64,000 nt of DNA from Nitratifractor salsuginis DSM 16511. Lineage in GTDB: Bacteria; Campylobacterota; Campylobacteria; Campylobacterales; Sulfurovaceae. Position 1 is the first letter of the stretch, and each line of letters opens with the position of its first letter. Location: positions 682,001 through 746,000 of the forward strand of contig NC_014935.1 of the NCBI RefSeq assembly GCF_000186245.1, written 5' to 3'. The notes beneath the pieces were generated by a model, which was not told where the DNA came from, ran no database searches, and saw only the letters and a program-made list of their open reading frames with translations. Shown piece by piece: positions 1,443 to 63,726 of the stretch. The translations under genes and the position numbers were made by a program.

Positions 1443-2426
1443 ATGGCGAGCATTTACGGTATTTTCCATCGGAGCCTGAGAGATCTGATCCGTTGGCCGG
1501 TGTTGCGGGAAGTGCTGGTGACCGGATTGCCACTGATGCTGATCTGGCTGGCCATCGGCTGGGTCGTCTGGACCCCGTTGCTGCATGTGAGCACCTGGAT
1601 CATCAGTTGGGTCCCTTTCAGTATCGTCAAAGCCAACGGAGCCCTGTTGATCCTCTTTTTGATCTGGGCTCTGGCGGTCCTGGTCTCCTATGCGTTCATT
1701 ACGGCAATGATCGCTCCGATCTTCTTCCGGAAGATGAAGCGGGGGTATTACTACTACTCTTTTGGCGTGCTGTTGTTGCTTGCCGCCGGATGGGCCTGGC
1801 TCATCATCGCCAACTGGGGGCTTCTCAACAAAGCCATCGCCGACAAACTCCTGGTCTGGCTCCCCTTTCAGACGGTGGCGGAGGGGAGTGCGATGCTGCT
1901 CAACTTCTACATCCTCTACGGCTTTTACATTTTGAGCCTCTTTCTGGTCCTTTCGTTGTTCCGGAAAGATTTTCTCGAAACGGTCCGCGAGATCAATTAC
2001 CCCGATTATGAACCTCCTGTCGAGAAGATCAAAACGCACCACGGGACGGTGGCGCTGCGGGATGCCGCACTTTTCGTGCTCCTGACGGTACTGCTCTTTC
2101 CCCTGCTGGTGATCCCGATCGTCAATGTCCTGATCCAGCTCTTCCTTTGGGCCTGGCTCTACCGGGACGCCACCTTCCGGGGAACCTGTCGGCTCTACTG
2201 CACCCAGGAGGAGTTCACCCGGCTCAAACAGCATCGTTTCGTCATCTGGAGCATCGCCTTTTTCGCTTCGATGCTCAACTTCGTGCCGATCATCAATATG
2301 TTTACTCCCTTTTTCGTCCAACTGGTCCTCTTCCACTGGATTATGGCCGAAAAGGGCATTGCTCCGGCTTCCGCGGATGAGCGCGAAGAGATCGAAAAAG
2401 GACTGGAGGCGAGTGATGGAGAGTGA
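1443..2426 (+). CDS. EI24/CysZ-like integral membrane protein
   Basis: 327 aa with about six hydrophobic segments (near residues 25-50, 65-90, 105-125, 150-170, 215-240 and 268-295). The overall organisation and the DATFRGTCRLY / LNFVPIINMFTPFF motifs resemble the EI24 domain family, which includes the sulfate permease CysZ. Sulfate transport is a possibility only; no cysteine-synthesis genes are adjacent. It follows the coiled-coil gene by four bases and overlaps the next small membrane gene by 11 bases, so translation is probably coupled. Confidence 0.65.
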   Translation: MASIYGIFHRSLRDLIRWPVLREVLVTGLPLMLIWLAIGWVVWTPLLHVSTWIISWVPFSIVKANGALLILFLIWALAVLVSYAFITAMIAPIFFRKMKRGYYYYSFGVLLLLAAGWAWLIIANWGLLNKAIADKLLVWLPFQTVAEGSAMLLNFYILYGFYILSLFLVLSLFRKDFLETVREINYPDYEPPVEKIKTHHGTVALRDAALFVLLTVLLFPLLVIPIVNVLIQLFLWAWLYRDATFRGTCRLYCTQEEFTRLKQHRFVIWSIAFFASMLNFVPIINMFTPFFVQLVLFHWIMAEKGIAPASADEREEIEKGLEASDGE

Positions 2427-2613
2427 AGAAAAAAAGAGGGTCATCATCTCCGGGCTGGATATCCCCTTTTGGGATCTGGTCTGGTTTATGGTGAAATTGG
2501 CGCTTGCCTCCTTCCCCGCGGTCTTTATCCTCTATCTCTTTGTGGTCTTGTTTACGATGCTTTTCGGAGCGGTGAGCGATCTTTTCATCCCCGGATTCGG
2601 GATGGTTCACTGA
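2416..2613 (+). CDS. Small membrane protein, unknown function
   Basis: 65 aa with one long or two short hydrophobic segments between residues 18 and 55 and a charged N-terminus (MESEEKKRV). The ATG lies inside the 3' end of the EI24-like gene, out of frame, behind a GAGG-type ribosome site. No family is recognised. Overlap with its neighbour suggests a shared role at the inner membrane. Confidence 0.6.
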   Translation: MESEEKKRVIISGLDIPFWDLVWFMVKLALASFPAVFILYLFVVLFTMLFGAVSDLFIPGFGMVH

Positions 2614-2648
2614 TTCTGGGCATTGTGCCTTGTGATCATTTGTGTCCG

Positions 2649-2668
2649 GAGGGCGCATTTTTGCCCTC
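2649..2668 (+). terminator. Hairpin after the EI24 operon, weak terminator
   Basis: GAGGGC and GCCCTC form a 6-bp stem around GCATTTTT, between the small membrane gene and the stress-protein gene. The U-tract after the stem is poor (TTGTC), so termination may be partial. A -10-like TATACT at 2685-2690 then precedes the next gene. Confidence 0.4.
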
Positions 2669-2723
2669 TTGTCGGAATATGGTATATACTGCGTAAAACC
2701 CGTAATTTATTAGGAGATAGAAG

Positions 2724-3560
2724 ATGATGCGACGTCTTTTGGCACTCTGTAGCGAAGTGGAGCAGGCTCCCGAGCTGATCGGGAAGACCCGCGAACTCTC
2801 CGATCGATTGAAGGCCGGTGTGACCCTGGTCTATGTGAAGGAGGAGGGGCTTTTTGAACTGCCGATCTACGAAGGCAGGGAAGAGAATATGGAAGCGGTG
2901 CGTGAGCATCTGGAGGAGCTGCTCCGCAAAGAGGGGCTCGAGGAGTGGGCACTGCTGATTTACGAGAATGATCTGGTTGACCACGCCGTGCTGGAGTCGG
3001 ATCGGGAAGATTCCCTCCTAATCGTCGCCAATCAGCACGAGGAGCTCGGCAAACTTTTGCAAAAGAGTGACCGTCCCCTCTATGTCATCGTGCCCGAAGC
3101 GGAGCACCATCCTGTCAAGGGACTCTATGTCCCCGATGTCGTGGGGGATCCCGCTCCCTGCTTCCATATGGTGAAGCGCCTGGAGCCAAAAGTGGGCTGG
3201 GAAGCCTATATGGATTATCAATTCTTCCCTTCAGCCGATGATGCGATGATCGATCCGGTCATGGGGACTATGACTCCCGAGATCCTTATCCAGGAGGAGT
3301 CTCAGGTCATCGAGAGTACCCGGGAGCGTTTCGAAGCCTTTTGCAAGGCGGAAGGGATCCCAGGGCATTTTGAGATCGGCGAATCGGGGATCGAGCAGGA
3401 TGTTCAGGACGCACTGGAGCGCAGCGGAGCCGATCTGCTGGTCTTCGCCCCGACGGACAGGGAGACGATCCTGGCCGAGGGGGCCAAGGGCCTTTTGGCA
3501 AATACCGATGTGGATGTGTTGGTCTGCTTTCAAGTGAGGGCGGCCTCTTTGGAGCTTTAG
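2724..3560 (+). CDS. Universal stress protein family, two USP-like halves
   Basis: 278 aa, soluble. Two halves (about 1-135 and 145-270) each look like a USP alpha/beta fold. The second half ends with the typical pattern GADLLVFAPTDRE, a variable loop, then ANTDVDVLVC. The clear ATP-binding GxxGxxxxGS motif of ATP-type USPs is not intact, since the loop reads ILAEGAKGLLANT; nucleotide binding is therefore uncertain. USP proteins act in stress survival. The start follows TAGGAGATAG. The next gene begins nine bases after the stop. Confidence 0.7.
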   Translation: MMRRLLALCSEVEQAPELIGKTRELSDRLKAGVTLVYVKEEGLFELPIYEGREENMEAVREHLEELLRKEGLEEWALLIYENDLVDHAVLESDREDSLLIVANQHEELGKLLQKSDRPLYVIVPEAEHHPVKGLYVPDVVGDPAPCFHMVKRLEPKVGWEAYMDYQFFPSADDAMIDPVMGTMTPEILIQEESQVIESTRERFEAFCKAEGIPGHFEIGESGIEQDVQDALERSGADLLVFAPTDRETILAEGAKGLLANTDVDVLVCFQVRAASLEL

Positions 3561-3569
3561 GTCCCGCAG

Positions 3570-3893
3570 ATGAGAGAACGCCTCAGAAGCGCGGCCCGAA
3601 GAGCCGCGGAGAATCCCGTATTGCGCCAGAGCGCCCGCTCCCTCAAACCCACTCCCAATCTCTGGGGAATACTGGGAGTACTCTTTTTCTTCATCCTTCC
3701 CGAGGTCATCGGATTTTGGCGGGGAAAAGCCATCGCCCAGTGGGCCCATGCCCGGATGCTTCAGGAACCCGACTTTATGGGGCGCAAAGTCTACTGGATT
3801 TTGGAGAAGCTCTTCGAAGACGGCGGCAGCTGGGTCAATCTGGGGATCGGGATCGCTCTGCTGGTCTGGATCTTTTATGAATGGCGGCACTGA
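3570..3893 (+). CDS. Small membrane protein, unknown function
   Basis: 107 aa. An N-terminal basic amphipathic stretch (about 1-25) is followed by a hydrophobic segment near 30-50 and another at about 88-103, ending in EWRH. No family is recognised. It lies nine bases behind the stress-protein gene and is probably co-transcribed with it. Confidence 0.6.
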   Translation: MRERLRSAARRAAENPVLRQSARSLKPTPNLWGILGVLFFFILPEVIGFWRGKAIAQWAHARMLQEPDFMGRKVYWILEKLFEDGGSWVNLGIGIALLVWIFYEWRH

Positions 3894-4022
3894 AGCCTCG
3901 GTAAATTCTCCAACCGGGCAGTGTCGTTTCCGACCGCTTCGATATGGATAATTTGCCCCTTTTCTCCCATATCCTTCTGCTATAATCTTTACAATTTTTA
4001 TTACCACACCAAGGGATGGCTT

Positions 4023-4736
4023 TTGATAAAAGATCCTGCCTTCAAAGCCGCGTTGAAAGCCTCGATGCCAGTGCTGATGGGCTACAGCGTCCTGGGCTTC
4101 GCCTTCGGTTTGTTGATGCGCTCTCAGGGCTATGCCTGGTATCTGCCGGTGGCGATGTCGCTGCTCATCTATGCCGGGACCCTGCAGTTTCTGGCTCTGG
4201 AGTTTTTTCGGGCCAAGGCGGGGATGTGGGAAATTTTCGTCGCGTCGATCTTCATCAATATCCGTCAAGCCTTCTACGGACTCTCCCTGCTCAAGCAATT
4301 CCAAAAGACCGGCCGTTTCAAACCCTATCTGATCTTCGCCCTCACCGATGAGACTTACGCATTGATGACCACTCTGAAGCCCGATGCCAGGATCGATCAG
4401 AGGCGTTACTACTTTTACCTGGCGGCACTGAATCAGAGCTACTGGGTTTTGGGCACGGTGGCCGGGGTGCTGGTGGGAGGCGTAATGCGTTTCGATACCC
4501 GGGGGCTCGATTTTTCCCTGACGGCCCTTTTTGTGGTGCTGGCTATGGAGCAGTACCGTCAGCGCAGAAATCTCCTTCCCTTTCTGATCGGAGCGGGCGC
4601 TTCCCTGGCGGCTATGGTGCTGGTCAGCCGCGACCGGATGCTGATCACCGCCATCGGCCTGGCGCTGCTGGGGATGCTCGCTTTGCGGGGGAGATTGAAT
4701 GAGGATGAGGAGGCTGAGGGTGGAACAGGTGAATGA
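4023..4736 (+). CDS. azlC: AzlC family branched-chain amino acid exporter, large subunit
   Basis: 237 aa, polytopic. It shows AzlC hallmarks: PVLMGYSVLGFAFGLL near the N-terminus, then MSLLIYAGTLQFLAL, the IFINIRQAFYGLSL helix and FALTDETYAL. AzlC with AzlD exports branched-chain and related amino acids across the inner membrane. The TTG at 4023 is chosen because AAGGGA lies 6-11 bases upstream and family members start near this point. An in-frame ATG at 3921 would add 34 non-conserved residues. It overlaps azlD. Confidence 0.85.
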   Translation: MIKDPAFKAALKASMPVLMGYSVLGFAFGLLMRSQGYAWYLPVAMSLLIYAGTLQFLALEFFRAKAGMWEIFVASIFINIRQAFYGLSLLKQFQKTGRFKPYLIFALTDETYALMTTLKPDARIDQRRYYFYLAALNQSYWVLGTVAGVLVGGVMRFDTRGLDFSLTALFVVLAMEQYRQRRNLLPFLIGAGASLAAMVLVSRDRMLITAIGLALLGMLALRGRLNEDEEAEGGTGE

Positions 4737-5049
4737 AGCATGGATCTGGCAAGCCGTCTTCGTCATGGCCCTAGCCAACCTCCTTACCCGTGCGGCTCCT
4801 TTTCTCTTCTTCTCCCGGCACCGTCCGCCCAGGCTCGTGATCTTTATCGAGCAAAATTTTCCGCCGGTCATTCTGACGATCCTGATCCTCTATACCCTCA
4901 GCGGCGTCGATCTCACCCAGGCCCCCTACGGGATCAGGGAGCTTTTGGGGATCGCGGTGACGGTTTTGCTGCATTGGAGATGGCGGAACTATTTGGTTTC
5001 TATTTTCGGTGGGACGGCTTTTTATATGGTATTGGTGCAGGGGGGTTGA
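4720..5049 (+). CDS. azlD: AzlD family branched-chain amino acid exporter, small subunit
   Basis: 109 aa with four hydrophobic helices. The motif ANLLTRAAPFLFF and the terminal RWRNYLVSIFGGTAFYM are typical of AzlD, partner of AzlC. The GTG at 4720 is preferred because AGGAGG sits at 4708-4713; ATG 4699 is also possible. The gene overlaps azlC by 17 bases. Its last 155 bases are repeated downstream at 8649-8803, on the far side of locus A. Confidence 0.8.
   Translation: MEQVNEAWIWQAVFVMALANLLTRAAPFLFFSRHRPPRLVIFIEQNFPPVILTILILYTLSGVDLTQAPYGIRELLGIAVTVLLHWRWRNYLVSIFGGTAFYMVLVQGG
4895..5049 (+). repeat. azlD 3' direct repeat, left copy
   Basis: The last 155 bases of azlD match 8649-8803 in the same orientation, with no insertions or deletions and about 11 substitutions by eye (about 93% identity). 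The two copies bracket the AT-richer locus A. Both end exactly at the azlD stop codon. Confidence 0.9.
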
Positions 5050-5077
5050 AGCGGGTTTGATACTTGAGCCCTGTCAG

Positions 5078-6007
5078 TCATTTTTTTGAAGACGTAGTTA
5101 AAAGATCCATAATCGTATCGTACACTTCTTCTAGCCGTGAAAGTTCCCATGGGATATGCAGGCGATAAACGGGGAGCGACTCTGCCATTTTGGCGAAATA
5201 AAAAAAACGTTGGATTTTGGTGAATTCAAAGGGGGCGAAGGGTGTATAGTGAAGAACTTTATATTTTTCGATTCCTATCAGCTTCTCGACGGCAACGGGG
5301 GCATCGGGTGAGGCCTTTTGGAGGCTAAAGAGGGCGGTGATGGGTAAAGGTTTCCGTTTGAAATTTTCCACCCTTTTGCCCAGGGTTTCGGCTTTTCTAA
5401 AAGGCCGCAAAAAAGGGTAGGAAGGGATGGCATAGTAGTCGGAAGCCTTTTGAAGTATCCCCAGAGTGTCATCTGAGAGCAAGGCATGCCCCCTCCGAAC
5501 GAAGTAGTCTGTCAGCGTAGACTTTCCCCCGTAGGAGAATGCTGAGAAGAGGAGTGCTTTTTCGTTTATTTCTACAGAACCAACGTGTAAAATATGATAA
5601 ATGCCTTCCAGCTCAAGTATCTGAGGTAAAAAAGTGTGATAGACCCAATAGCGCAAGCGCTCGGGAGTGAAGGCTTGATGAGGAATGTATTCAATACTAT
5701 GTGTTTTGTGCCGCCACATCAGTGTCAGCACTCCTTCCACTTCAATCCCCCAGTCGATGTTCTTTTTTTCCGTTTGATCGAAAGAGACGGTGCTGAGATA
5801 GCGGAAGGATCTTTTCTGACTCTCTACCTTTTCACTGACATAAGGGGCTTGCAGCTTTTTCTTACCGCTTCGGTATATACGGATATACCGCTGATCGTCG
5901 TAAGCCGTAATGGGTAAATCATACGCTTCATTGAGCTGGGGCTCTTCTTCAAATAGGATATGGTGGCCAAAAACAGATGTCATATTCTTATATTCTTTAT
6001 AATCCAT
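5078..6007 (-). CDS. HprK-like P-loop kinase family protein (locus A)
   Basis: 309 aa, soluble. Residues about 155-185 hold a Walker-A-like SAFSYGGKSTLTDYF and then LLSDDTLGI, the order seen in HPr Ser kinase/phosphorylase relatives (P-loop followed by an Asp-Asp motif). It lacks the HprK signature and N-domain, so HPr is not the assumed substrate. A clear paralogue lies at 62815-63726. HprK-related proteins are known partners of PqqD-like proteins and peptide modification, for example lasso-peptide kinases; a role on the adjacent mini-protein is inference. It is divergent from that gene. ATG 5983 (MTSVFGHH) is an alternative start supported by alignment with the paralogue. Confidence 0.7.
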   Translation of the reverse strand: MDYKEYKNMTSVFGHHILFEEEPQLNEAYDLPITAYDDQRYIRIYRSGKKKLQAPYVSEKVESQKRSFRYLSTVSFDQTEKKNIDWGIEVEGVLTLMWRHKTHSIEYIPHQAFTPERLRYWVYHTFLPQILELEGIYHILHVGSVEINEKALLFSAFSYGGKSTLTDYFVRRGHALLSDDTLGILQKASDYYAIPSYPFLRPFRKAETLGKRVENFKRKPLPITALFSLQKASPDAPVAVEKLIGIEKYKVLHYTPFAPFEFTKIQRFFYFAKMAESLPVYRLHIPWELSRLEEVYDTIMDLLTTSSKK

Positions 6008-6061
6008 TTGTAATCGTTTAAAAAATAAATCAATTTCTTGATAATTTAAAGCTCAATTCTA

Positions 6062-6091
6062 TTGAATTTTATATGTTGACCGTATTATAAT
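6062..6091 (+). promoter_or_regulatory. Sigma70-type promoter for the locus A mini-protein
   Basis: TTGAAT (6062-6067) and TATAAT (6086-6091) are 18 bases apart in the AT-rich gap between the divergent kinase-like gene and the mini-protein gene. The mini-protein ATG follows at 6123 behind AGGAAGGGG. Confidence 0.55.
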
Positions 6092-6122
6092 ATGAATATT
6101 TCAGACAGGAAGGGGATTCATA

Positions 6123-6308
6123 ATGCCAGAGAAAAAGATGGACTCTTTTGTTGAATCTAAAAAGGAAAAGGTTGAAGGTTCGGAGCGTAGAACATTTATT
6201 AAAAAAGCGTTCTACTCCACTCCTGTACTGGTGGGACTGGGTCAAATGGTCAAACCAAGCTCTGCCCATGCGGATAGTACGACAATCCCCCCGCATCCGG
6301 ATCGATAG
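6123..6308 (+). CDS. Tat-signal mini-protein with an 11-residue exported tail (locus A)
   Basis: 61 aa. After a charged leader (1-24) it carries a twin-arginine stretch ERRTFIKKAFYSTPVLVGLG, a hydrophobic core, and an AHA cleavage site near residue 50. Only DSTTIPPHPDR would remain after cleavage. Strong ribosome site AGGAAGGGG. Paralogous in layout to the 58-aa protein at 61899-62075 (RRNFLKKAAYSAPSIMVLG). Each lies in a locus with an HprK-like protein and homologous exported proteins. The tail is too short to fold, so it is either a peptide product, a modified peptide or an anchor. Function unknown; the Tat-like leader is seen directly. Confidence 0.7.
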   Translation: MPEKKMDSFVESKKEKVEGSERRTFIKKAFYSTPVLVGLGQMVKPSSAHADSTTIPPHPDR

Positions 6309-6320
6309 AAAGGAAATGGT

Positions 6321-7754
6321 ATGAAGATGACACTCAAATATGCTACGGTACTCCTCCTTTCGGGCACACTTTCTTCATTGAACGCGGCACCGAGTTGTCT
6401 CGAAGTCTGGGGAAGTGGACTGGAAGCAGGCTCTGACAACTCGACTGCCTTCGATTTTGATACGAACTCCCCTATACCGCGGCTCTATGACTGGGTCAAC
6501 TGCAGGCTCATAGGTAAGGACAAAAGTGGTGATATGGAGTGCCGCGACAGCAATAACAATATTGTAGCCAACGTCGATGTCACCGGTTATGAACGCACGA
6601 CGATCAGTGATTCCACTCCAGGCGGTGAAGACCTGGTGGTCAACGAGAACGAGACGCTGACTCTGACACCGGGGCAAACCTATGACTATAATTCGATTCA
6701 AGTAAGTGAAGGTGGAAAAATTTTAGTGGGCTCCGGTAACGGAGTGGTGTATATCCGCGTAAGCGGCGATGTCAAACTCGATAAGAATGCATTTATCAAC
6801 TGCAGCTCATATCCGGGCAACGACGGAGACACCAACGGTTTCGGCGATCCTCAGAAACTGGTGATATACACCAATGGTCAATTTCAGTTTGGAGGGGAGC
6901 AGGCTTGTATCTCAGGGTTTGTATATGCCAAGGGCAAGATAGATTTCAATGATGATGCTCGGGTAATGGGGTCTGTCTCAGCGGACTATTTCGACAATGT
7001 CAAATCGGGGACCGAAATCCATGAAAGACAGCCAAGCGGTGACTTCTCGCCACTCTGTGAACCGGGAGCTGCGGCGGAAGACGGTTGGCATTTTGTAGGT
7101 ATACCCGCCGATACCTCGGCTGATTCCGCGACGGTGGATGACATTTTTGGGGATAATTTCGGGACACTCAGATATTCGACGAGCGGGCCCGGCTGGACTT
7201 TATACCGTCGTGACTTTAGTACAACGGACAATAGCAGCAGTTATACGACAATGGATATTAACGATACGCTTGAGACAGGCAGGGGCTATTGGCTATATAC
7301 TGATACCAAGCGCATATGGGATGTGGAACGTGCAAGCCCAATAAACTGGAACATTGCCAAGGGAACGGATGGCTGCCAATCTGATAACGGCTGTATCGAA
7401 TATCGCCTGCCCGTGCCAGTCCAGGATTGCGCCACAGCACCGGCCTCGGATCGGTTCAGGAACGTGATGGTCGGTTATCCGGGTAAAAGCAATGCGGATT
7501 GGAAAGATTACCGTTTCCTTCTCGATGGTTCAACAGTATATACCCCCTCTGAGGCAGAAACGGCGGGTTATGCCCTGAAAAAGATCCACCAGTATGACAG
7601 GGCGGCGGATGACTATACCACCTGTGACGATACCGATCAAACACCGGGCGCCTGTGTCACCAAGCCTTGGGAAGGGATATGGGTACAGGTCGAATGTGGT
7701 ACGGCGGGACATACACTCGATCTTGTCATTCCCAACGGAGGAGCACAACAATGA
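6321..7754 (+). CDS. Exported beta-rich surface protein (locus A)
   Basis: 477 aa with a signal peptide (1-22, ending LNAA). Residues about 105-240 are a repetitive beta region (GNGVVYIRVSGDVKLDKNAF, ISGFVYAKGKIDFNDDARV, MGSVSA) reminiscent of MshQ/PilX-type adhesin and polymer-forming repeats. Residues about 254-477 form a domain shared with the 804-aa protein of locus B: GWHFVGIP, GRGYWLY, the MVGYPGK segment and KPWEGIWVQVE. Several Cys residues could form disulfides outside the cytoplasm. It lies 12 bases after the mini-protein and shares an ATGA overlap with the next gene. Probably a cell-surface or secreted structural protein; ligand unknown. Confidence 0.7.
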   Translation: MKMTLKYATVLLLSGTLSSLNAAPSCLEVWGSGLEAGSDNSTAFDFDTNSPIPRLYDWVNCRLIGKDKSGDMECRDSNNNIVANVDVTGYERTTISDSTPGGEDLVVNENETLTLTPGQTYDYNSIQVSEGGKILVGSGNGVVYIRVSGDVKLDKNAFINCSSYPGNDGDTNGFGDPQKLVIYTNGQFQFGGEQACISGFVYAKGKIDFNDDARVMGSVSADYFDNVKSGTEIHERQPSGDFSPLCEPGAAAEDGWHFVGIPADTSADSATVDDIFGDNFGTLRYSTSGPGWTLYRRDFSTTDNSSSYTTMDINDTLETGRGYWLYTDTKRIWDVERASPINWNIAKGTDGCQSDNGCIEYRLPVPVQDCATAPASDRFRNVMVGYPGKSNADWKDYRFLLDGSTVYTPSEAETAGYALKKIHQYDRAADDYTTCDDTDQTPGACVTKPWEGIWVQVECGTAGHTLDLVIPNGGAQQ

Positions 7755-8590
7755 AACGATACAGCAAAATATTGACCCGATCCATAGCGGCGACAAGTTT
7801 AATCGCTCTGATGACGAGTTCGCTGGAAGCCAGACTTCAGACCGGTCCTATCGTGAATCACGAGGTTCAACAACATAGAATCGAAAGGTTGGCAAAACAC
7901 AAAAGAGTCAGAGTCGGGGCTATGTGGGCAATGACACTCTATGCCGAAGATGCTGACAGCAAACTCAAAAGCGTAGAGACGCGATTCGGTCAGATCAAAA
8001 AGGCCAAAAAGGGTGTCGATGCCTATGATCAGGAATCCTTTCCCAGTTGGCCGAAGCTCGCCGTCAATTTCGAGGCTGATGGACCCGGGAGCAAATATAA
8101 GGGAGACTACCATAACATCACGAGATGGAGAGGTGACGAATGGAATTTCGTCGTAACTTCCAGCGATGTCAACAGAGCCGTAACGCTTCGATGGTCTGAA
8201 CTCCAGAAAGTGGTATTGCTCAAAAGTAAAGCTCAACCAAGACCCTACAAACGCATCGAAGCACCCGGAGCCAGAAAACTTCGCCGACTGCTGCTTATCG
8301 ATCTCAAGACCGGTGAAAAGATCCCTGCTGTGATCGACGGAAAGCTGCAGAGCTATACGTTCAATATGGAGGGGGAAAAGACTCGTAGATTCAAATGGAA
8401 GTTTCTTTCGGTTAGAGAGTATTTCAAAAGTAGAAGATTGGCCCATCGTAATATGAGAGCAAAACGCAGATTGGAAAAGATATACGCCAAAGAGCTCGCA
8501 AAAAGCCTAAGAGCGGAAAAGAGAGCGAAGAGGCACTCGTCACATCATACTCCTCCACCGGCTGGAAAGAAAGAGATTATTGAAGAGTAG
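7751..8590 (+). CDS. Exported basic protein, homologous to the locus B lipoprotein
   Basis: 279 aa. A signal peptide (about 1-26, ending SLEA) precedes a domain (about 60-220) that matches the 61081-61803 lipoprotein in order: a GDYHN/GDYWS block, RGDEWNF/ERAVWTF, then LIDLKTGEKIPAVIDGKLQ versus LVDVDNKQTYSVDELDKIN and FKWKF/FRWVRG. The C-terminal 60 residues are very rich in Arg, Lys and His, unlike the paralogue. ATG 7751 overlaps the preceding stop (ATGA), implying translational coupling. No known family; likely a periplasmic or surface partner of the preceding protein. Confidence 0.65.
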   Translation: MKRYSKILTRSIAATSLIALMTSSLEARLQTGPIVNHEVQQHRIERLAKHKRVRVGAMWAMTLYAEDADSKLKSVETRFGQIKKAKKGVDAYDQESFPSWPKLAVNFEADGPGSKYKGDYHNITRWRGDEWNFVVTSSDVNRAVTLRWSELQKVVLLKSKAQPRPYKRIEAPGARKLRRLLLIDLKTGEKIPAVIDGKLQSYTFNMEGEKTRRFKWKFLSVREYFKSRRLAHRNMRAKRRLEKIYAKELAKSLRAEKRAKRHSSHHTPPPAGKKEIIEE

Positions 8591-8648: not shown

Positions 8649-8803
8649 CCCTCAGCGGCGTCGATCTTACCCGGGCCCCCTACGGGATGAGGGAGCTCCT
8701 GGGGATCGCGGTGACGGTTTTGCTGCATTGGCGATGGCGGAACTATTTGGTCTCTATTTTTGGTGGGACGGCTTTTTATATGGTTTTGGGGCAGTGGGGT
8801 TGA
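8649..8803 (+). pseudogene. Headless azlD 3' fragment (right copy of the direct repeat)
   Basis: Translates in the azlD frame as LSGVDLTRAPYGMRELLG and onward to the normal stop, giving the last 50 or so residues of AzlD with a few substitutions and no start or N-terminal helices. It lies 58 bases after the locus A genes. As it is not a gene by itself, it marks either an insertion boundary or an ancient duplication. Confidence 0.85.
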
Positions 8804-57947: not shown

Positions 57948-58048
57948 AAATACATTATACATTATAAAGGTACAACTCATTCTGTTATACTTTTATTTAA
58001 ATTTAAGAAATTGAAATATTAAAAATCAGCAGAATGAAGGTGATAAAG

Positions 58049-58321
58049 ATGGATTTCTCCAAGAAAGTGATTTTTCCCGATTCTATATTCGCCCAGGAAG
58101 TGGACGGCGAGATGGTGCTGCTGGATATGAACACCGAAAATTACTTCGGTCTCGACAGCGTCGCCAGTGATATCTGGAAGCTGCTTCAGGAAGGTAAAAC
58201 GATCGGGGAGACATACGAGGCGCTTCTGGAGATCTATGAAGTGGACCCGGAGACACTCAGGAAAGATCTCGAAACCTTTATCGATAATCTCCTGGAAAAC
58301 AGGCTTGCTTTTATAGAGTAA
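58049..58321 (+). CDS. PqqD-like peptide chaperone/carrier (locus B)
   Basis: 90 aa. VDGEMVLLDMNTENYFGLDSVASDIWKLLQEGKTI matches the PqqD/RRE fold (an aspartate-containing beta strand, tyrosine-containing turn, then helices), and residues about 55-90 complete it. PqqD-like RREs hold a peptide substrate for a modifying enzyme. No radical-SAM, B2-type protease or PqqE gene is present; the HprK-like protein at the end of the locus is the only obvious enzyme. ATG 58049 has GAAGG upstream; ATG 58034 is possible. Confidence 0.75.
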   Translation: MDFSKKVIFPDSIFAQEVDGEMVLLDMNTENYFGLDSVASDIWKLLQEGKTIGETYEALLEIYEVDPETLRKDLETFIDNLLENRLAFIE

Positions 58322-58655
58322 AAATTTCTCCGGACACCTCTATCTCCAATCGATAAAATTTTCAGGAAACCTCAGTAGAGTAATTAAATCACCTTTTGCC
58401 TTGGCGGAATTTATATGAAAAATATCCATTCTGAAAGCGTAAAATCTAAAAATATTAGTAGGTTTGGCAATCTTTTGATATTTTTGGTTAAAATATAAAG
58501 CTACTAGAAAATGCCACCCCTGTTGCGAGGCAGGTTCGGAAAGCCATGGGTCTTTGATACTGTCACTTGGCAGTAAATGAGAAGATCGCCAGGTTGCCTA
58601 ATAGAAGAGTACGGATGAGTAAGCGGATATTCTCTTCCATAGCAAAGAGGCAATA
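58322..58655. other. 334-base intergenic region between the PqqD-like gene and the 804-aa protein gene
   Basis: No gene in any frame. The left half (58322-58500) is AT-rich and shows nothing clear. The right part holds the aptamer-like RNA at 58511-58599 and then a possible hairpin GAAGAG/CTCTTC (about 58604-58636) close to the ribosome site AGAGG before ATG 58656. Confidence 0.7.
58511..58599 (+). ncRNA. Candidate c-di-GMP-I (GEMM-I) riboswitch
   Basis: Visible parts in family order: a hairpin CCTGTT-GCGA-GGCAGG with a GNRA loop (58519-58534), then CGGAAAGCC followed by ATGGGTC, a long stem GGTCTT/AAGATC (58549-58554 with 58582-58587) carrying a second hairpin TACTGTC-ACTT-GGCAGTA, and GCCAGGTTGCC at the 3' end. 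The closing P1 helix is imperfect: a GC/GC pair, one mismatch, then ACC/GGU. GEMM-I RNAs often precede exported adhesins, as here. A covariance search is needed to confirm. Confidence 0.6.
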
Positions 58656-61070
58656 ATGGAAAAAATACATAAGCAATTGTTGAAGCGGTTTTTTGTTTTG
58701 GGGATGTTATTGCTCGGAAGTTTGGCATTCCCTTCAACATTCGACTGGGAGACAGAAGGATGGTCGCCTGATGGAGCTTTGAGTCAAAACTATACCAATG
58801 TAGATGATTCCGGAGTTAATGTCAGTATCACTGTGACAGGTGATACTGACAAATTGCAGGACAGTACTCCAAAGCTGGATGACGGTGGAGGGAGTCTTTC
58901 CAATGATAATCTGGAGTTTTATGCGGATTATGATGATACAACCCAGAAAATTACGGTAACGATAAAATTCTCTACGCCGGTTAAATTAAGTAATTTGAGA
59001 TTCAGAGATATAGATTATGCCGATGACGGTACATATGAGTTTAATGACAAAATTATCGTCACCGCACAAGATATTGATGGGAATACAGTTACTCCCAATG
59101 ATGTCCAATTGGGAGATTATGTCCAAAGTAATGCAGCAGGTGAATATGAATCTGATGAAAATCAAGACCACAATGGGGGGCCTGACAATACCGGGGCAAT
59201 GGTCACCCTGGGATTTACTGATGTATACGTAAGTGAATTGACTTTCGTCTATACTGATGGAGATATCAATACTGATAACCCTACTGGCCAGGCGATTTGG
59301 TTTGACAATTTTGATTTTGAAGCTCTCGATACTGATGGAGATGGTGTTGTAGATGTCAAAGATATCGACGATGATAACGATGGAATTTTGGATGTAAACG
59401 AGAGAACTCCTGTTGTGGCTCAGACAGTTTCCAATACAGATACAGGAACGATTCCTGATGATGGATATCCCGACAACTGTCTGGATCGAACATTTAACGT
59501 ATCAGATGGTGATGTTATCGACGATATAACGATTTTAGTAAAAATAGAACATTCATGGAGAGGAGATCTTGTTGTTCAACTCATTTCTCCCTTTGGAACA
59601 GTGATTGATTTGATAAGAGATGAAGGGGGGAATGCCCAAAATTTAAGTACCAATTTCTCCGATGCCGCGACGGAATCTATCGGTGATGATAGTGATGATC
59701 AAGATTTGGATCATCCGGTGTATAGAAAACCTGATCAGCCGCTGAGTACATTTAATGGAGAAGATCCGAAAGGCACTTGGACACTGCATATGTGTGATGA
59801 TGCGAGTCAAGATGAAGGAACCTTCAACGAGGCAGATCTTAATATCAGCACTTCGAACAATCGGGATAGCGACAACGATGGCATTCTTGATTCTGTCGAC
59901 CTCGACAGCGACAACGACGGCATTCCCGATAATGTGGAGGCGCAATCAACAGGGGATTACACTGCAACGAGTGGAACCGATGACGATGGTGATGGTTTGG
60001 ATGATGCTTATGACCAAAACACCTCAAGTGCCCCCGGAAGTATAGGGCTTGTTTCTCCTGATACCGACGATGACGGTATTCCCGACTACCTCGACAGTGA
60101 CAGTGATAATGATGGCTACAGTGACTGTGAAGAGGGAAGGAATAACCCTGAGTGTGATCCCAACCCGGCTGTAGAAAAGAACGGGCTGCCGGAATGGCTG
60201 CAAGTGGGCGATGGCTATGACAATGTGTCTGCCGGTATAACGGACCCTGATCCGGACGATGGAGGAAATATTCAGGATGAAGTTACCGGTAATCATGAAG
60301 CAGCCTACCGGGAGTTTCTCTGCGGAAAAAACCGAACCACACTGACCCATATGCAGTGGAAAATCATCAGCTTCAGTTGTGATACTGGGGCAAACTCCAT
60401 CTCTGATCTTTTGGGAGGTGACGACGGTTTGGGTGAATATGGTACTGACTGGGTGATGTACGAGCAGAGTGGTAGTGACAACTATGAGATCAACGGTACG
60501 ACCCATCCCAACACGGATAAACGGAAACTCAATGCTGGGGATACCGTCGTGCCGGGCAAGGGATATTGGATCATCGCCGACCTCGGAGGGACGGGGAATG
60601 AAAAGAATATCACTATTAATGAAACACTAGATGATATCAATCCAACATCGGTGGAAGATGCCTCTGCAGTCGGTATCAGTGATGGCAACTTTAGTAAAGT
60701 ACACGAATACCTGCTGCCTAAAAATGAAGTTAGTGATCCAGATACGGTTGATTACAAAAAATATATGGCAGGCAATCCATTCCCTTATGCCTTTCATTTG
60801 GCCAATCTCTATTTTAAACACAATGCAGATGGAATGACTTACCATCCGATGGGAGATATAAATAACGATGATTATATCAACAAAATTGTCTATAAGCATG
60901 ATAGCAATGAAACAGGTCCTGTTACCGGATATGAAGCGATAGATCCTTCGACACCTGGATTCGGCGGCTCCATCGAGCCGATGGAAGGGTTCTTTATCAA
61001 GATCGAGAAGAACCAAAGTGATAATTATGTCAACCATTTCGCCTATCCTCTGACCTACAGTAATGATTAA
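58656..61070 (+). CDS. Large exported protein with P domain, TSP3 calcium repeats and the shared locus domain (locus B)
   Basis: 804 aa. Signal peptide about 1-27. Residues about 30-225 form a beta domain. Around 225-250 and again at 400-500 lie thrombospondin type 3-like Asp-rich repeats (DTDGDGVVDVKDIDDDNDG, DLDSDNDGIPD), which bind calcium. Residues about 255-395 form a proprotein-convertase P domain (IEHSWRGDLVVQLISPFG, GTWTLHMCDDA). Residues about 566-804 match the C-terminal domain of the 477-aa protein in locus A (GKGYWIIAD, MEGFFIKIE). Probably secreted or surface-bound and calcium-stabilised. The upstream RNA may control it. Confidence 0.8.
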   Translation: MEKIHKQLLKRFFVLGMLLLGSLAFPSTFDWETEGWSPDGALSQNYTNVDDSGVNVSITVTGDTDKLQDSTPKLDDGGGSLSNDNLEFYADYDDTTQKITVTIKFSTPVKLSNLRFRDIDYADDGTYEFNDKIIVTAQDIDGNTVTPNDVQLGDYVQSNAAGEYESDENQDHNGGPDNTGAMVTLGFTDVYVSELTFVYTDGDINTDNPTGQAIWFDNFDFEALDTDGDGVVDVKDIDDDNDGILDVNERTPVVAQTVSNTDTGTIPDDGYPDNCLDRTFNVSDGDVIDDITILVKIEHSWRGDLVVQLISPFGTVIDLIRDEGGNAQNLSTNFSDAATESIGDDSDDQDLDHPVYRKPDQPLSTFNGEDPKGTWTLHMCDDASQDEGTFNEADLNISTSNNRDSDNDGILDSVDLDSDNDGIPDNVEAQSTGDYTATSGTDDDGDGLDDAYDQNTSSAPGSIGLVSPDTDDDGIPDYLDSDSDNDGYSDCEEGRNNPECDPNPAVEKNGLPEWLQVGDGYDNVSAGITDPDPDDGGNIQDEVTGNHEAAYREFLCGKNRTTLTHMQWKIISFSCDTGANSISDLLGGDDGLGEYGTDWVMYEQSGSDNYEINGTTHPNTDKRKLNAGDTVVPGKGYWIIADLGGTGNEKNITINETLDDINPTSVEDASAVGISDGNFSKVHEYLLPKNEVSDPDTVDYKKYMAGNPFPYAFHLANLYFKHNADGMTYHPMGDINNDDYINKIVYKHDSNETGPVTGYEAIDPSTPGFGGSIEPMEGFFIKIEKNQSDNYVNHFAYPLTYSND

Positions 61071-61080
61071 GGAGCTCCTG

Positions 61081-61803
61081 ATGCAAAGCAAAAATATTTA
61101 TAGATTTTTTTCTTTCCTGATATTATTCTCACTGGTCGGTCTGATGCAGGGATGTCAGGGGACTTCCCAGGATGGGTTGGGTTCCTCCGACAAAAAACAA
61201 GAGACAAATCCCGATACAGGGAAAGACTCCAAAGCCGGAGAAGGCGGATGGTATATGCGTACTCGAGTCTCTGCCACTGCAGAAGACGGGACCGTTTATC
61301 AGCATAATACAGCCGGGGTTTTCGGTCGGCTTGTTGACAGCTGGAATGGAAAAGACCGACACGATATCCCCGCCTACGGGCCGGCAGCACTCCAGGTGGT
61401 TTTTCCTCATTATAATTGGGGAGATAAGGAGAGCGGTGATTACTGGAGCGATTATCGTAGCTACCCGGAGAAGGGGTCGAATGAAAGAGCTGTCTGGACC
61501 TTCCAGGTCAAAAATCAAAAGAGTGTCGACCTCTCCAATGCGGATATTAGGATTAAACTTGATGACGCGAGGCGTGTGGACTTTGTCAAAATAGATGGAA
61601 ATATCCGGTATAAAGAGACCGGCCTCAACCAAGGAATGAAGAACCAATTTACTCTGGTTGATGTGGACAATAAGCAGACGTACAGTGTCGATGAACTGGA
61701 TAAGATCAATCTCAATATGGACGGTAAACACATCCGGACATTCCGATGGGTCAGGGGGCCGGTACTTGAGGAAGATTTTAAACCAGTCGTGCTGCCGAAA
61801 TGA
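61081..61803 (+). CDS. Lipoprotein homologous to the locus A exported protein
   Basis: 240 aa. Lipobox LVGLMQGC near residue 24 (Cys then acylated). The domain from about 60 matches the 7751-8590 protein: GDYWSDYRSYPEKGSNERAVW, then KIDGNIRYKETG, FTLVDVDNKQTY and RTFRWVRG. ATG 61081 follows GGAGCTCCTG just after the stop of the large gene; an in-frame ATG at 61063 overlaps that stop. A damaged second copy of part of this gene lies at 62125-62248. Confidence 0.75.
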   Translation: MQSKNIYRFFSFLILFSLVGLMQGCQGTSQDGLGSSDKKQETNPDTGKDSKAGEGGWYMRTRVSATAEDGTVYQHNTAGVFGRLVDSWNGKDRHDIPAYGPAALQVVFPHYNWGDKESGDYWSDYRSYPEKGSNERAVWTFQVKNQKSVDLSNADIRIKLDDARRVDFVKIDGNIRYKETGLNQGMKNQFTLVDVDNKQTYSVDELDKINLNMDGKHIRTFRWVRGPVLEEDFKPVVLPK

Positions 61804-61898: not shown

Positions 61899-62075
61899 AT
61901 GAATAAGCAAAAAAGAGAGAAGCTGAATGGCAAGATGCTTAATGCTCGCCGGAACTTTTTGAAAAAGGCTGCATATTCGGCTCCATCCATAATGGTGTTG
62001 GGCAGCTTGGCCAAGCCTACTAGGGCAAAAGCCGATCAATTCGGAGGACCACCAAGCGATCCATCTGGCTGGTAA
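61899..62075 (+). CDS. Tat-signal mini-protein with a 13-residue exported tail (locus B)
   Basis: 58 aa, below usual gene-calling length. A charged leader is followed by ARRNFLKKAAYSAPSIMVLG, a hydrophobic core, and AKA before the tail DQFGGPPSDPSGW. It parallels the 61-aa protein of locus A in leader, KKAxYSxP motif, core, cleavage site and a short Pro-rich tail. The ATG is behind AGGAGA. It lies between the lipoprotein gene and a broken copy of that gene. The tail, rather than a folded protein, would be the exported product; this is inference. Confidence 0.65.
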   Translation: MNKQKREKLNGKMLNARRNFLKKAAYSAPSIMVLGSLAKPTRAKADQFGGPPSDPSGW

Positions 62076-62124
62076 TAAGAAAGGGTCCTCTATCAAGATC
62101 GATAAAAATCAGAATATGATCAGA

Positions 62125-62248
62125 AGATGAGGCGTGTGAACTTTGTCAAAGTAAATGGAAATATCCGCTATACAGAAACCAATCTAACTAAAAAAGGATG
62201 GTAAACCGATTCATTCTAATGGATACGGACAATATAAACAGATATACC
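62125..62248 (+). pseudogene. Broken partial copy of the locus B lipoprotein gene
   Basis: 62125-62180 matches 61565-61620 with few changes (both contain GGCGTGTG, CTTTGTCAAA and ATGGAAATATCCG), translating as RRVNFVKVNGNIRYTET. After that the frame meets a stop (GGATGGTAA) and identity fades, although GACAATATAAACAGATATAC still parallels GACAATAAGCAGACGTAC. No start or upstream domain remains. Evidence of a duplicated module now decaying. Confidence 0.75.
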
Positions 62249-62296: not shown

Positions 62297-62716
62297 ATGC
62301 CGAAAAATCGAGCGATTTTATATGGAGTGATTCTTCTTGTGTTGGTAGTGGTCGCTTTTATGAGATTCAATACTGATAAAGTGAATCAAAAACCTGCCGC
62401 TACGGGCGCAGCGACAACCCAAACAGAGAACACATCCTCTGCCATAGATGCAAATGAGGCTCTGAACGCTGGAGTTGAGAGGGGATTTCACCCGAAAAAT
62501 TCCAATACCGAAGAGGAAAAGAACTCTTCGCTCAATGCGGAGAGAATGGAGAGCGCAGAATCTGGATCGAACGAAGATGAAGGAACCGGTGACGAAGAGG
62601 CCGAAGATGAAGCTTCCTATGTCAAAAGAACTCACCTCATAGGCGGTGCCGATGTGGTATGGGAACCGCCAAAACCCAAAGATTCTGAAGATAAGTTTGG
62701 AGAACCGCCTGAATAA
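62297..62716 (+). CDS. Small acidic membrane-anchored protein (locus B)
   Basis: 139 aa. One transmembrane helix at about 7-23, then an Ala/Thr/Asn/Glu-rich, strongly acidic outer or periplasmic part (about 60-110 is nearly all Glu, Ser, Asn, Asp) ending in ADVVWEPPKPKDSEDKF. Not recognised. Possibly a linker or tether of the locus B machinery. No similar gene is present in locus A. Confidence 0.55.
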   Translation: MPKNRAILYGVILLVLVVVAFMRFNTDKVNQKPAATGAATTQTENTSSAIDANEALNAGVERGFHPKNSNTEEEKNSSLNAERMESAESGSNEDEGTGDEEAEDEASYVKRTHLIGGADVVWEPPKPKDSEDKFGEPPE

Positions 62717-62814
62717 CCTGACAAAAAGAAAAACTGATTTTATAAAAAATCCGACACATATTCTATTGAGTTCACTGAATATCGTCAGATGTGGGGAGAA
62801 ATGAAGAAGTTTGT

Positions 62815-63726
62815 ATGATACATGGACATCAATTCCTCTTTGTCGATCAGCAAAGTTTGCAAGAAGAGTATGACTCTTTCAAATTTTCTCATTCCGGCAA
62901 CGATAGATTAAACACGATCGAAGTAAGGGAAATCGACACATATCAGGGGTTTGAGCGACGAAGCTCTCTGTTGTATCTGTCTGGACGTGGATGCTATTAT
63001 TTGAGCAACACTTCTCCTGAGAAGATTGAGCGAGATCATGACTGGGGATTGGAGATTGTAAATGTCTTGACCCTGGTTTGGGATGGCAAAAGTAGACGCA
63101 TCCTTTATGCAAAAGGAAGAGACTTTACCCCCCGATTACTTCAATTTTGGATTTATCATACTTTTTTCCCGATCGCGCTTGAATTGGAAAGAAATTACAC
63201 GATGCTTCATGTTGGGGCAGTGGAAATCGATGGAGGAGTGGTTTTCTTTTCTGCCCCCTCCTTCGGGGGGAAATCGACACTTACAGACTATTTCATTGGA
63301 CGCGGGCATACTCTTTTTGCGGATGATACACTCCCGATAAAGCAAGAAAACGGGGAATTTATTGTCTACCCTTCATTCCCTTACCATCGTCCCTATCGAC
63401 AACCGGAAACTCTGGGGCGTCGCGTGGAGAATTTTGCCGGGGAACCTGCCCTTCTCAAAGCCCTTTTTGAGTTGAGACAATGCGAACCGAACGATTCAAT
63501 CGACGTAAGGCCTCTGGAAGGCATTGAAAAGTTCAGGGCTTTTTATCAAAGTGTCTTTGTGAGTTTTTCTTTTATGAAGAAAGAACGCTTTGAATTTTTT
63601 GCGAAAATGGCGATGAAAACTCCCGCTTATCGTGTCTCAATACCCTGGGATAAAGAACGCTTGCCTGAAGTCTACAACGCTATTGTCAAACAGCTTCAGG
63701 ATCAGTCTCAAGTTTCTATAGTATAG
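62815..63726 (+). CDS. HprK-like P-loop kinase family protein (locus B)
   Basis: 303 aa. Paralogue of the locus A protein at 5078-6007. Shared blocks: YHTFFPIALELE, the Walker-A-like SAPSFGGKSTLTDYF near 145-159, LFADDTLPI, PYRQPETLGRRVENF, GIEKF and a common C-terminal region (FAKMA). HprK-type order but no HPr-specific motifs. With the PqqD-like protein it recalls HprK/PqqD pairs in peptide-modification loci; substrate unknown. ATG 62815 (MIHGHQFLF) aligns with the paralogue; GTG 62791 is an alternative. Confidence 0.7.
   Translation: MIHGHQFLFVDQQSLQEEYDSFKFSHSGNDRLNTIEVREIDTYQGFERRSSLLYLSGRGCYYLSNTSPEKIERDHDWGLEIVNVLTLVWDGKSRRILYAKGRDFTPRLLQFWIYHTFFPIALELERNYTMLHVGAVEIDGGVVFFSAPSFGGKSTLTDYFIGRGHTLFADDTLPIKQENGEFIVYPSFPYHRPYRQPETLGRRVENFAGEPALLKALFELRQCEPNDSIDVRPLEGIEKFRAFYQSVFVSFSFMKKERFEFFAKMAMKTPAYRVSIPWDKERLPEVYNAIVKQLQDQSQVSIV

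Follow-up and report, generated by a model that had tools for sequence, protein, structure and literature searches.

Two loci of Nitratifractor salsuginis probably encode a Tat-exported peptide of lasso/LPP type together with lectin-headed surface proteins

What is made by a locus that joins an HprK-like kinase, a mini-protein with a twin-arginine translocation (Tat) leader and two larger exported proteins? We analysed a window of 64,000 nucleotides (nt), bases 682,001-746,000 of the complete single-contig genome of Nitratifractor salsuginis DSM 16511 (2,101,285 bp), which contains two such loci, A and B; a third copy, locus C, lies elsewhere in the genome. A sequence-only reading of the window had proposed that A and B are copies of an undescribed exported-peptide and surface-protein system, and all the genes it cited are open reading frames where it had placed them. 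Our favoured answer, which we hold with moderate confidence, is that the mini-protein gives rise to a linear, probably phosphorylated peptide, a ribosomally synthesised and post-translationally modified peptide (RiPP) of the lasso or linear polyphosphorylated peptide (LPP) type, that its leader doubles as a Tat export signal, and that it belongs with lectin-headed adhesins.

The leader and core of the mini-protein

The mini-proteins and their motifs of the type bound by a RiPP recognition element (RRE) are as follows (lengths in amino acids, aa).
6123..6308, forward strand: Tat-leader mini-protein A, 61 aa, predicted core DSTTIPPHPDR, with a ribosome-binding site
6213..6260, forward strand: RRE-type leader motif YSTPVLVGLGQMVKPS within mini-protein A, from motif and profile comparison
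61899..62075, forward strand: Tat-leader mini-protein B, 58 aa, predicted core DQFGGPPSDPSGW
61974..62021, forward strand: RRE-type leader motif YSAPSIMVLGSLAKPT within mini-protein B, from motif and profile comparison

All mini-proteins share one layout: the start varies and is followed by RRxFLKK and YxAPxLxxLGxLxKPT, after which come a small-x-Ala cleavage site and a core of only 8-18 residues, as in the predicted peptides of A and B and also in DGTGGPPPPPFGGWLP. The leader is a chimera of a twin-arginine signal and, at fixed spacing behind it, YxxPxLxxxG(x5T). In lasso and LPP leaders, YxxPxL is the motif to which the RRE binds (PMC13381572; PMC10368454). It is present in all 40 mini-proteins, in 38 of them exactly 9 residues past the first Arg, and in none of 24 ordinary Tat signals from related genomes. 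With a position-specific scoring matrix built on six lasso precursors from these loci, the median score is 15.5 for the mini-proteins and 2.0 for the control Tat signals. Likewise, hhalign places the mini-protein profile in register with the lasso leaders (E 4e-4), against E 0.87 for ordinary Tat signals.

The mini-protein might instead be an ordinary small Tat protein that remains in the adhesin complex as a membrane-tethered or periplasmic subunit, with the kinase regulating another target such as gene expression or the adhesins. The Tat features are clear: the RR pair is invariant in the alignment, a hydrophobic stretch follows, a small residue-x-Ala (AxA) precedes the core, and profile comparison matches the mini-proteins to Tat signals as well. 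Small Tat targets near enzymes are also known, and one mini-protein weakly matches formate_TAT. But an ordinary Tat protein explains neither the near-fixed YxxPxLxxxG that the control signals lack, nor the strict co-occurrence with the kinase, nor the PqqD and nucleotidyltransferase genes found in mini-protein loci even where the large and second exported genes are missing, and we consider it unlikely. The mini-protein profile also weakly matched formate-dehydrogenase Tat proteins and long Tat enzymes (loci L115, L116, L118 and L121; genomes G381 and G387), whose signals we took to be ordinary Tat signals and disregarded.

Lack of conservation of the mini-protein frames at the protein level would have refuted the sequence-only reading, but they are conserved as proteins. 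The ratio of non-synonymous to synonymous substitution (dN/dS) is below 1 in all 12 mini-protein pairs compared, other than A and B (0.21-0.43 in eight, 0.53-0.72 in four close pairs), which indicates that they evolve as proteins. The ribosome-binding sites of mini-proteins A and B are good (AGGAAGGGG, AGGAG).

The cores fall into two classes, each with a recurrent Ser or Thr. In class I, which lacks FGxPP, a Ser/Thr stands at predicted mature position 3 in 16 of 21 mini-proteins and at position 2 or 3 in 20 of 21 (shuffle P < 5e-5). In class II, with FGxPP or a close variant, Ser follows PP or PQ (PPS/PQS) in 11 of 11. Ser3 of the core is the residue phosphorylated by BsfK (PMC10368454) and by LppK (PMC13381572).

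Kinase, RRE and nucleotidyltransferase

The putative modification genes within the window are the following.
5078..6007, reverse strand: HprK-like peptide kinase of locus A, 309 aa, identified by BLASTP against B and by residues invariant across 26 relatives
62791..63726, forward strand: HprK-like peptide kinase of locus B, 311 aa, sister of a lasso-linked kinase
58034..58321, forward strand: PqqD-family discrete RRE of locus B, 95 aa, Pfam PF05402 at 69.6 bits, lasso PqqD models matched below cut-off

The His, GGKST and DD residues of the kinase (H140, K161, S162, D178, D179) are invariant in the alignment of 26 relatives, and BsfK requires the same His, Lys, Ser and Asp-Asp residues (PMC10368454). 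Of the three glycines of the P-loop only one is kept, and one of the two substitutions is an Ala that is invariant throughout the family. The link to exosortase-associated systems drawn in the sequence-only reading was not supported. Both proteins fall far short of HprK_rel_A (TIGR04352; 25.8 and 22.3 bits against a cut-off of 200) and are also below the HprK_rel_B (TIGR04355) cut-off, the likeness being weak and around the P-loop, and no paper joining 'HprK-related kinase' to exosortase or PqqD came up in the literature search.

The PqqD-like protein already seen at locus B is a discrete RRE, as found in most relatives. The genome has one further PqqD-like gene (L161 8751-8987), which stands alone, without a kinase beside it. 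A PF14907 nucleotidyltransferase gene adjoins locus C and is also found in Arcobacter-type loci; there is none at A or B.

Distribution and co-occurrence

We searched 119 relatives, 397 good Campylobacterota genomes and, in a named-genome scan, named relatives (Sulfurovum, Nitratifractor). Among the 119 relatives the kinase family is present in 20, the second exported domain in 12 and the mini-protein in 12 (strong matches plus the G016 variant). With P values uncorrected for shared ancestry, the second domain and a module-type kinase occur together in 11 genomes (P 4e-12), all 12 genomes with a mini-protein have a kinase (P 1e-11), and in the 397 Campylobacterota genomes the 12 with a mini-protein again all lie within the 20 with a kinase (P 5e-18). 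The named-genome scan found 45 kinase loci, about 23 of which contain the large, second, mini-protein and kinase genes, usually with PqqD. In total the full set is found at about 27 loci including A, B, C and G042, mostly in Sulfurovaceae. The families that the sequence-only reading had joined into one system thus do co-occur in other genomes, and its choice of the mini-protein as substrate is likely.

More distant Campylobacterota (Arcobacter, Sulfuricurvum and others) have the mini-protein, kinase, PqqD and nucleotidyltransferase genes without the adhesin pair, and some of these loci adjoin polysaccharide genes. This suggests that the peptide set is the core of the system and the adhesin pair a lineage-specific partner. 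Copies of the module also occur on contigs labelled Thermodesulfobacteriota and Methyloprofundus (L066, L080), by horizontal transfer or because the contigs are misbinned.

The connection with lasso peptides

In the loci L032 and L084, from two genomes, a lasso precursor and cyclase take the place of the mini-protein. The gene order in L032 (genome G050) is large, second, acidic, large, second, lasso precursor, cyclase, kinase, ATP-binding cassette (ABC) exporter, B2 and PqqD. Its B2 protease scores 102.8 bits against a cut-off of 33, its cyclase has the lasso cyclase as best NCBIfam match, below that model's cut-off, and its precursor tail VPSDPGGW resembles the tail PPSDPSGW of mini-protein B. 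In L084 the lasso precursor and cyclase stand directly behind an exported FG-GAP/C25 (gingipain-type) peptidase protein (2242-7906), and in L036 the module and a lasso-like cluster adjoin. An exporter gene was seen only beside lasso clusters. In the kinase tree the locus B kinase is placed beside the lasso-linked kinases of L032 and L053 (100/100 for the four-row set), and about five switches between mini-protein and lasso partners are needed, at least three of them forced by well-supported branches.

With its lasso-like leader, and with lasso clusters adjoining the module in L032 and L036, the mini-protein could be imagined as a true lasso precursor, threaded and cyclised by enzymes encoded elsewhere in the genome. 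We regard this as very improbable, because the cores lack the combination of Gly1 with Asp/Glu at positions 7-9 and most minimal loci have no cyclase. Furthermore, a profile search of the Nitratifractor genome found no B2 protease over the cut-off, and no cyclase stands in a lasso context there, the sole strong Asn synthase being outside one.

Lasso-type clusters with an HprK-like kinase occur in Sulfurovaceae and other Campylobacterota (L032 5885-12095, L036 8723-14565, L043 6318-13183, L045 6394-12093). The top literature matches on lasso clusters of this group contained no mention of lasso peptides.

The exported partner proteins

Five genes of the window encode the candidate partners.
6321..7754, forward strand: large exported protein A, 477 aa, conserved GYW domain at the C-terminus
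7751..8590, forward strand: second exported protein A, 279 aa, C-terminal tail HTPPPAGKK
58656..61070, forward strand: large exported protein B, 804 aa, P-domain, TSP3-like repeats and C-terminal GYW domain
61063..61803, forward strand: second exported protein B, 246 aa, lipoprotein-like, beta-rich domain
62297..62716, forward strand: acidic anchored protein of locus B, 139 aa, C-terminal FGEPPE

The large proteins are alike in their C-terminal domain only, and their heads are LamG, H-lectin, L-type lectin, Kelch, FG-GAP or P-domains. Variable lectin-like heads are as expected of adhesins, which fits the earlier proposal that the large proteins are surface partners. The shared domains of both exported families have no Pfam or NCBIfam name. 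AlphaFold models are confident and beta-rich for the C-terminal domain of large protein B (predicted local distance difference test, pLDDT, 86.8) and for the second exported domain of B (pLDDT 83.7). In L126 (7446-8774) and L128 (7370-8590) the second exported domain is fused behind a DUF4214 domain.

The acidic protein had also been noted before as an addition at locus B, and its C-terminus proved to be of a recurrent kind. Tails of FG[L/E]PP or FDxxKPP are frequent at the end of the second exported protein or, if it lacks one, of the acidic protein; the acidic homologues of L032 and L033 end in FGEPPL and FGEPPI. FGxPP tails of mini-protein and partner coincide, in 8/9 against 0/21 (P 2e-6, kinship uncorrected). 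The coincidence would also be expected if the kinase and RRE modified the partner's tail and the mini-protein were a tail-mimicking decoy or carrier. Yet the partners have Sec or lipoprotein leaders without YxxPxL, and their tails often have no Ser/Thr (FGLPPM, FGEPPE), so that we think modification of the partner quite unlikely.

Common origin of the three loci

That A and B are copies of one system is borne out by four shared families, by the third copy and by the co-occurrence across genomes. In BLASTP comparisons of A and B the kinases match at 42% over 310 aa (E 1e-82), the mini-proteins at 44% (E 2e-11), the C-terminal domains of the large proteins at 22% (E 9e-5) and the second exported proteins at 25% (E 0.02). 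Locus C (G000:C1, about 1,704,816-1,709,105, equal to L004 6817-11106) has the order large exported, second exported, mini-protein and kinase, with the nucleotidyltransferase gene divergent. The weak similarities of the exported proteins of A and B are secured because locus C bridges both, with E 2e-36 (A-C) and E 2e-7 (B-C) for the large protein and E 3e-16 and E 2e-8 for the second. The large, second, mini-protein and kinase families are thus paralogous across A, B and C. Among the proteins of A and B, only PqqD and a P-domain pass curated Pfam or NCBIfam cut-offs.

Locus B also contains a relic between the mini-protein and acidic genes.
62081..62180, forward strand: relic of a second large plus second-exported gene pair, both gene ends deletion-fused, from direct repeats and frames

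The relic repeats match 60985-61015 at 84% and 61569-61620 at 88%, and it looks as if locus B derived from a two-pair arrangement such as that of L032. Locus A is flanked by a 155-nt direct repeat (93%) of the 3' end of an azlD-like gene (4895-5049 and 8649-8803, spaced by 3754 nt), as might be left by insertion or exchange of the cassette at this gene; no integrase gene lies between the repeats.

A probable cyclic di-GMP riboswitch

One regulatory element was found at locus B, the sole Rfam match in the window.
58504..58602, forward strand: predicted aptamer of a cyclic di-GMP (c-di-GMP) riboswitch, c-di-GMP-I-GGC, RF03167 at 53.7 bits (gathering score 59), E 4.9e-12

The aptamer ends 53 nt 5' of the large exported gene. 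Riboswitches of the c-di-GMP-I type are found upstream of a mini-protein or adhesin gene in 11 of about 29 loci scanned, locus B included; the others, before the mini-protein or large gene, are L034, L036, L032, L035, L073, L074, L075, L076, L081 and L094. RF03167 scores 62.6-66.3, over the gathering score, at L036, L075, L076, L074 and L033, and L036 has two such riboswitches in tandem before the adhesin gene (4377-4475 and 4488-4585). In L033 a c-di-GMP riboswitch (6616-6689) precedes a different exported protein of 396 aa, between lasso-type and module-type kinases.

Proposed mechanism

From these observations we infer RRE binding, phosphorylation, Tat export, cleavage and a role in adhesion or at the surface. 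At locus B, c-di-GMP would set the expression of the adhesin, partner lipoprotein, mini-protein and kinase through the probable riboswitch. In the cytoplasm the PqqD-type RRE would bind YxxPxLxxxG of the leader and present the core to the kinase, which would phosphorylate the fixed Ser/Thr, at mature position 3 in class I and at the Ser of FGxPPS in class II. The nucleotidyltransferase, where present, may add a further group. Release from the RRE would free the same segment to act as Tat signal, and export and a cut after AxA would leave 8-18 residues; the genome does encode TatC. Outside, the modified peptide might act with the lectin-headed adhesin and its partner lipoprotein. The C-terminal FG[L/E]PP tail of this lipoprotein is a copy of the class II core and, we speculate, could occupy the same binding site. 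A more tentative idea, which may well prove wrong, is that the RRE, docked on a leader that is also the Tat signal, keeps the precursor cytoplasmic until the kinase has finished and so acts as a proofreading chaperone for a modified peptide bound for a c-di-GMP-controlled adhesin.

Several observations weigh against a phosphorylated, Tat-exported peptide. Alanine changes in YxxPxL of BsfA left phosphorylation intact (PMC10368454). With no PqqD gene at A or C, these two loci would depend in trans on that of B or on the lone second one; neither has a c-di-GMP riboswitch, and the aptamer of locus B is under the gathering score. Charged residues in the hydrophobic stretch of the L125 and L126 mini-proteins (YEAPKLIILGEIVKP, YVAPKLIILG) make a poor Tat signal and fit RRE docking better than a hydrophobic signal. 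The L067 core has no Ser/Thr at all, a PDB fold search gave no significant match for either exported domain, and part of the co-occurrence statistics may reflect kinship.

The RRE motif in the Tat leader, the lasso/LPP relation, the riboswitch, the third copy and the FGxPP common to mini-protein and partner tails were not part of the sequence-only reading. Here kinase and RRE logic shares an operon with lectin-headed surface proteins, downstream of a c-di-GMP riboswitch, which suggests a role in attachment or biofilm that can be tested. If true, the dual leader would couple modification of a peptide to its export in a new way, and genome miners could use it to search for precursors that they now miss.

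Comparison with known systems

The formate-dehydrogenase-region Tat target (TIGR02811) is likewise a small Tat-signal protein. It differs in that the mini-proteins score below its cut-off, it has no YxxPxL and its gene neighbours are others (L118, L121).

Phosphorylated lasso peptides (paeninodin, pseudomycoidin and Bsf; PMC9266682, PMC10368454) have in common with our system the leader motif, the RRE family, the His/Lys/Asp-Asp kinase and NTP_transf_5, and some kinases of the same clade reside in lasso clusters. In contrast, the mini-protein has a Tat signal and a core unable to form the ring, and the genome lacks a B2 protease over the cut-off and a cyclase in lasso context. We know of no biological role for phosphorylated lasso peptides.

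The closest known system is that of the LPPs, described in 2026 from Bacillota only and without a known role, for which the authors could note only nearness to capsule genes (PMC13381572). Both systems have a YxxP leader motif, a discrete RRE, an HprK-like kinase, no cyclase and a Ser3-type candidate site, and in both lasso clusters are often near. A candidate counterpart of the nucleoside triphosphate (NTP) transferase of LPPs, LppN, is the PF14907 gene, which stands at part of the loci, next to C but at neither A nor B. All 40 mini-proteins match the LPP motif [Y/W]xxPx[LVIFA], but they do not follow the longer consensus YxxPxVLxHQxIxFETxxS, agreeing with it in YxAPxLxxLGxLxKPT at the Y, P, hydrophobic and T positions alone. 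The LPP leader has an LppS signal-peptidase site where the mini-protein has a Tat signal with an AxA site, and the LPP core is 45 aa long against 8-18. LPPs have a dedicated peptidase of signal peptidase I (SpI) type, LppS, and an MsbA-like exporter; neither was recognised by eye among the open reading frames of A, B and C, and no genome-wide SpI profile search was run. Finally, LPPs belong to Bacillota and the mini-protein system to Campylobacterota, where it is accompanied by adhesin partners and a c-di-GMP riboswitch. A literature search for lasso together with Tat signal peptides returned only a bacteriocin paper, apparently unrelated. The word undescribed in the sequence-only reading therefore holds for this variant and not for its chemistry: within the literature searched, novelty lies in the fusion of leader and Tat signal, the adhesin operon and control by c-di-GMP, and the chemistry is of the kind known from LPPs and lasso peptides.

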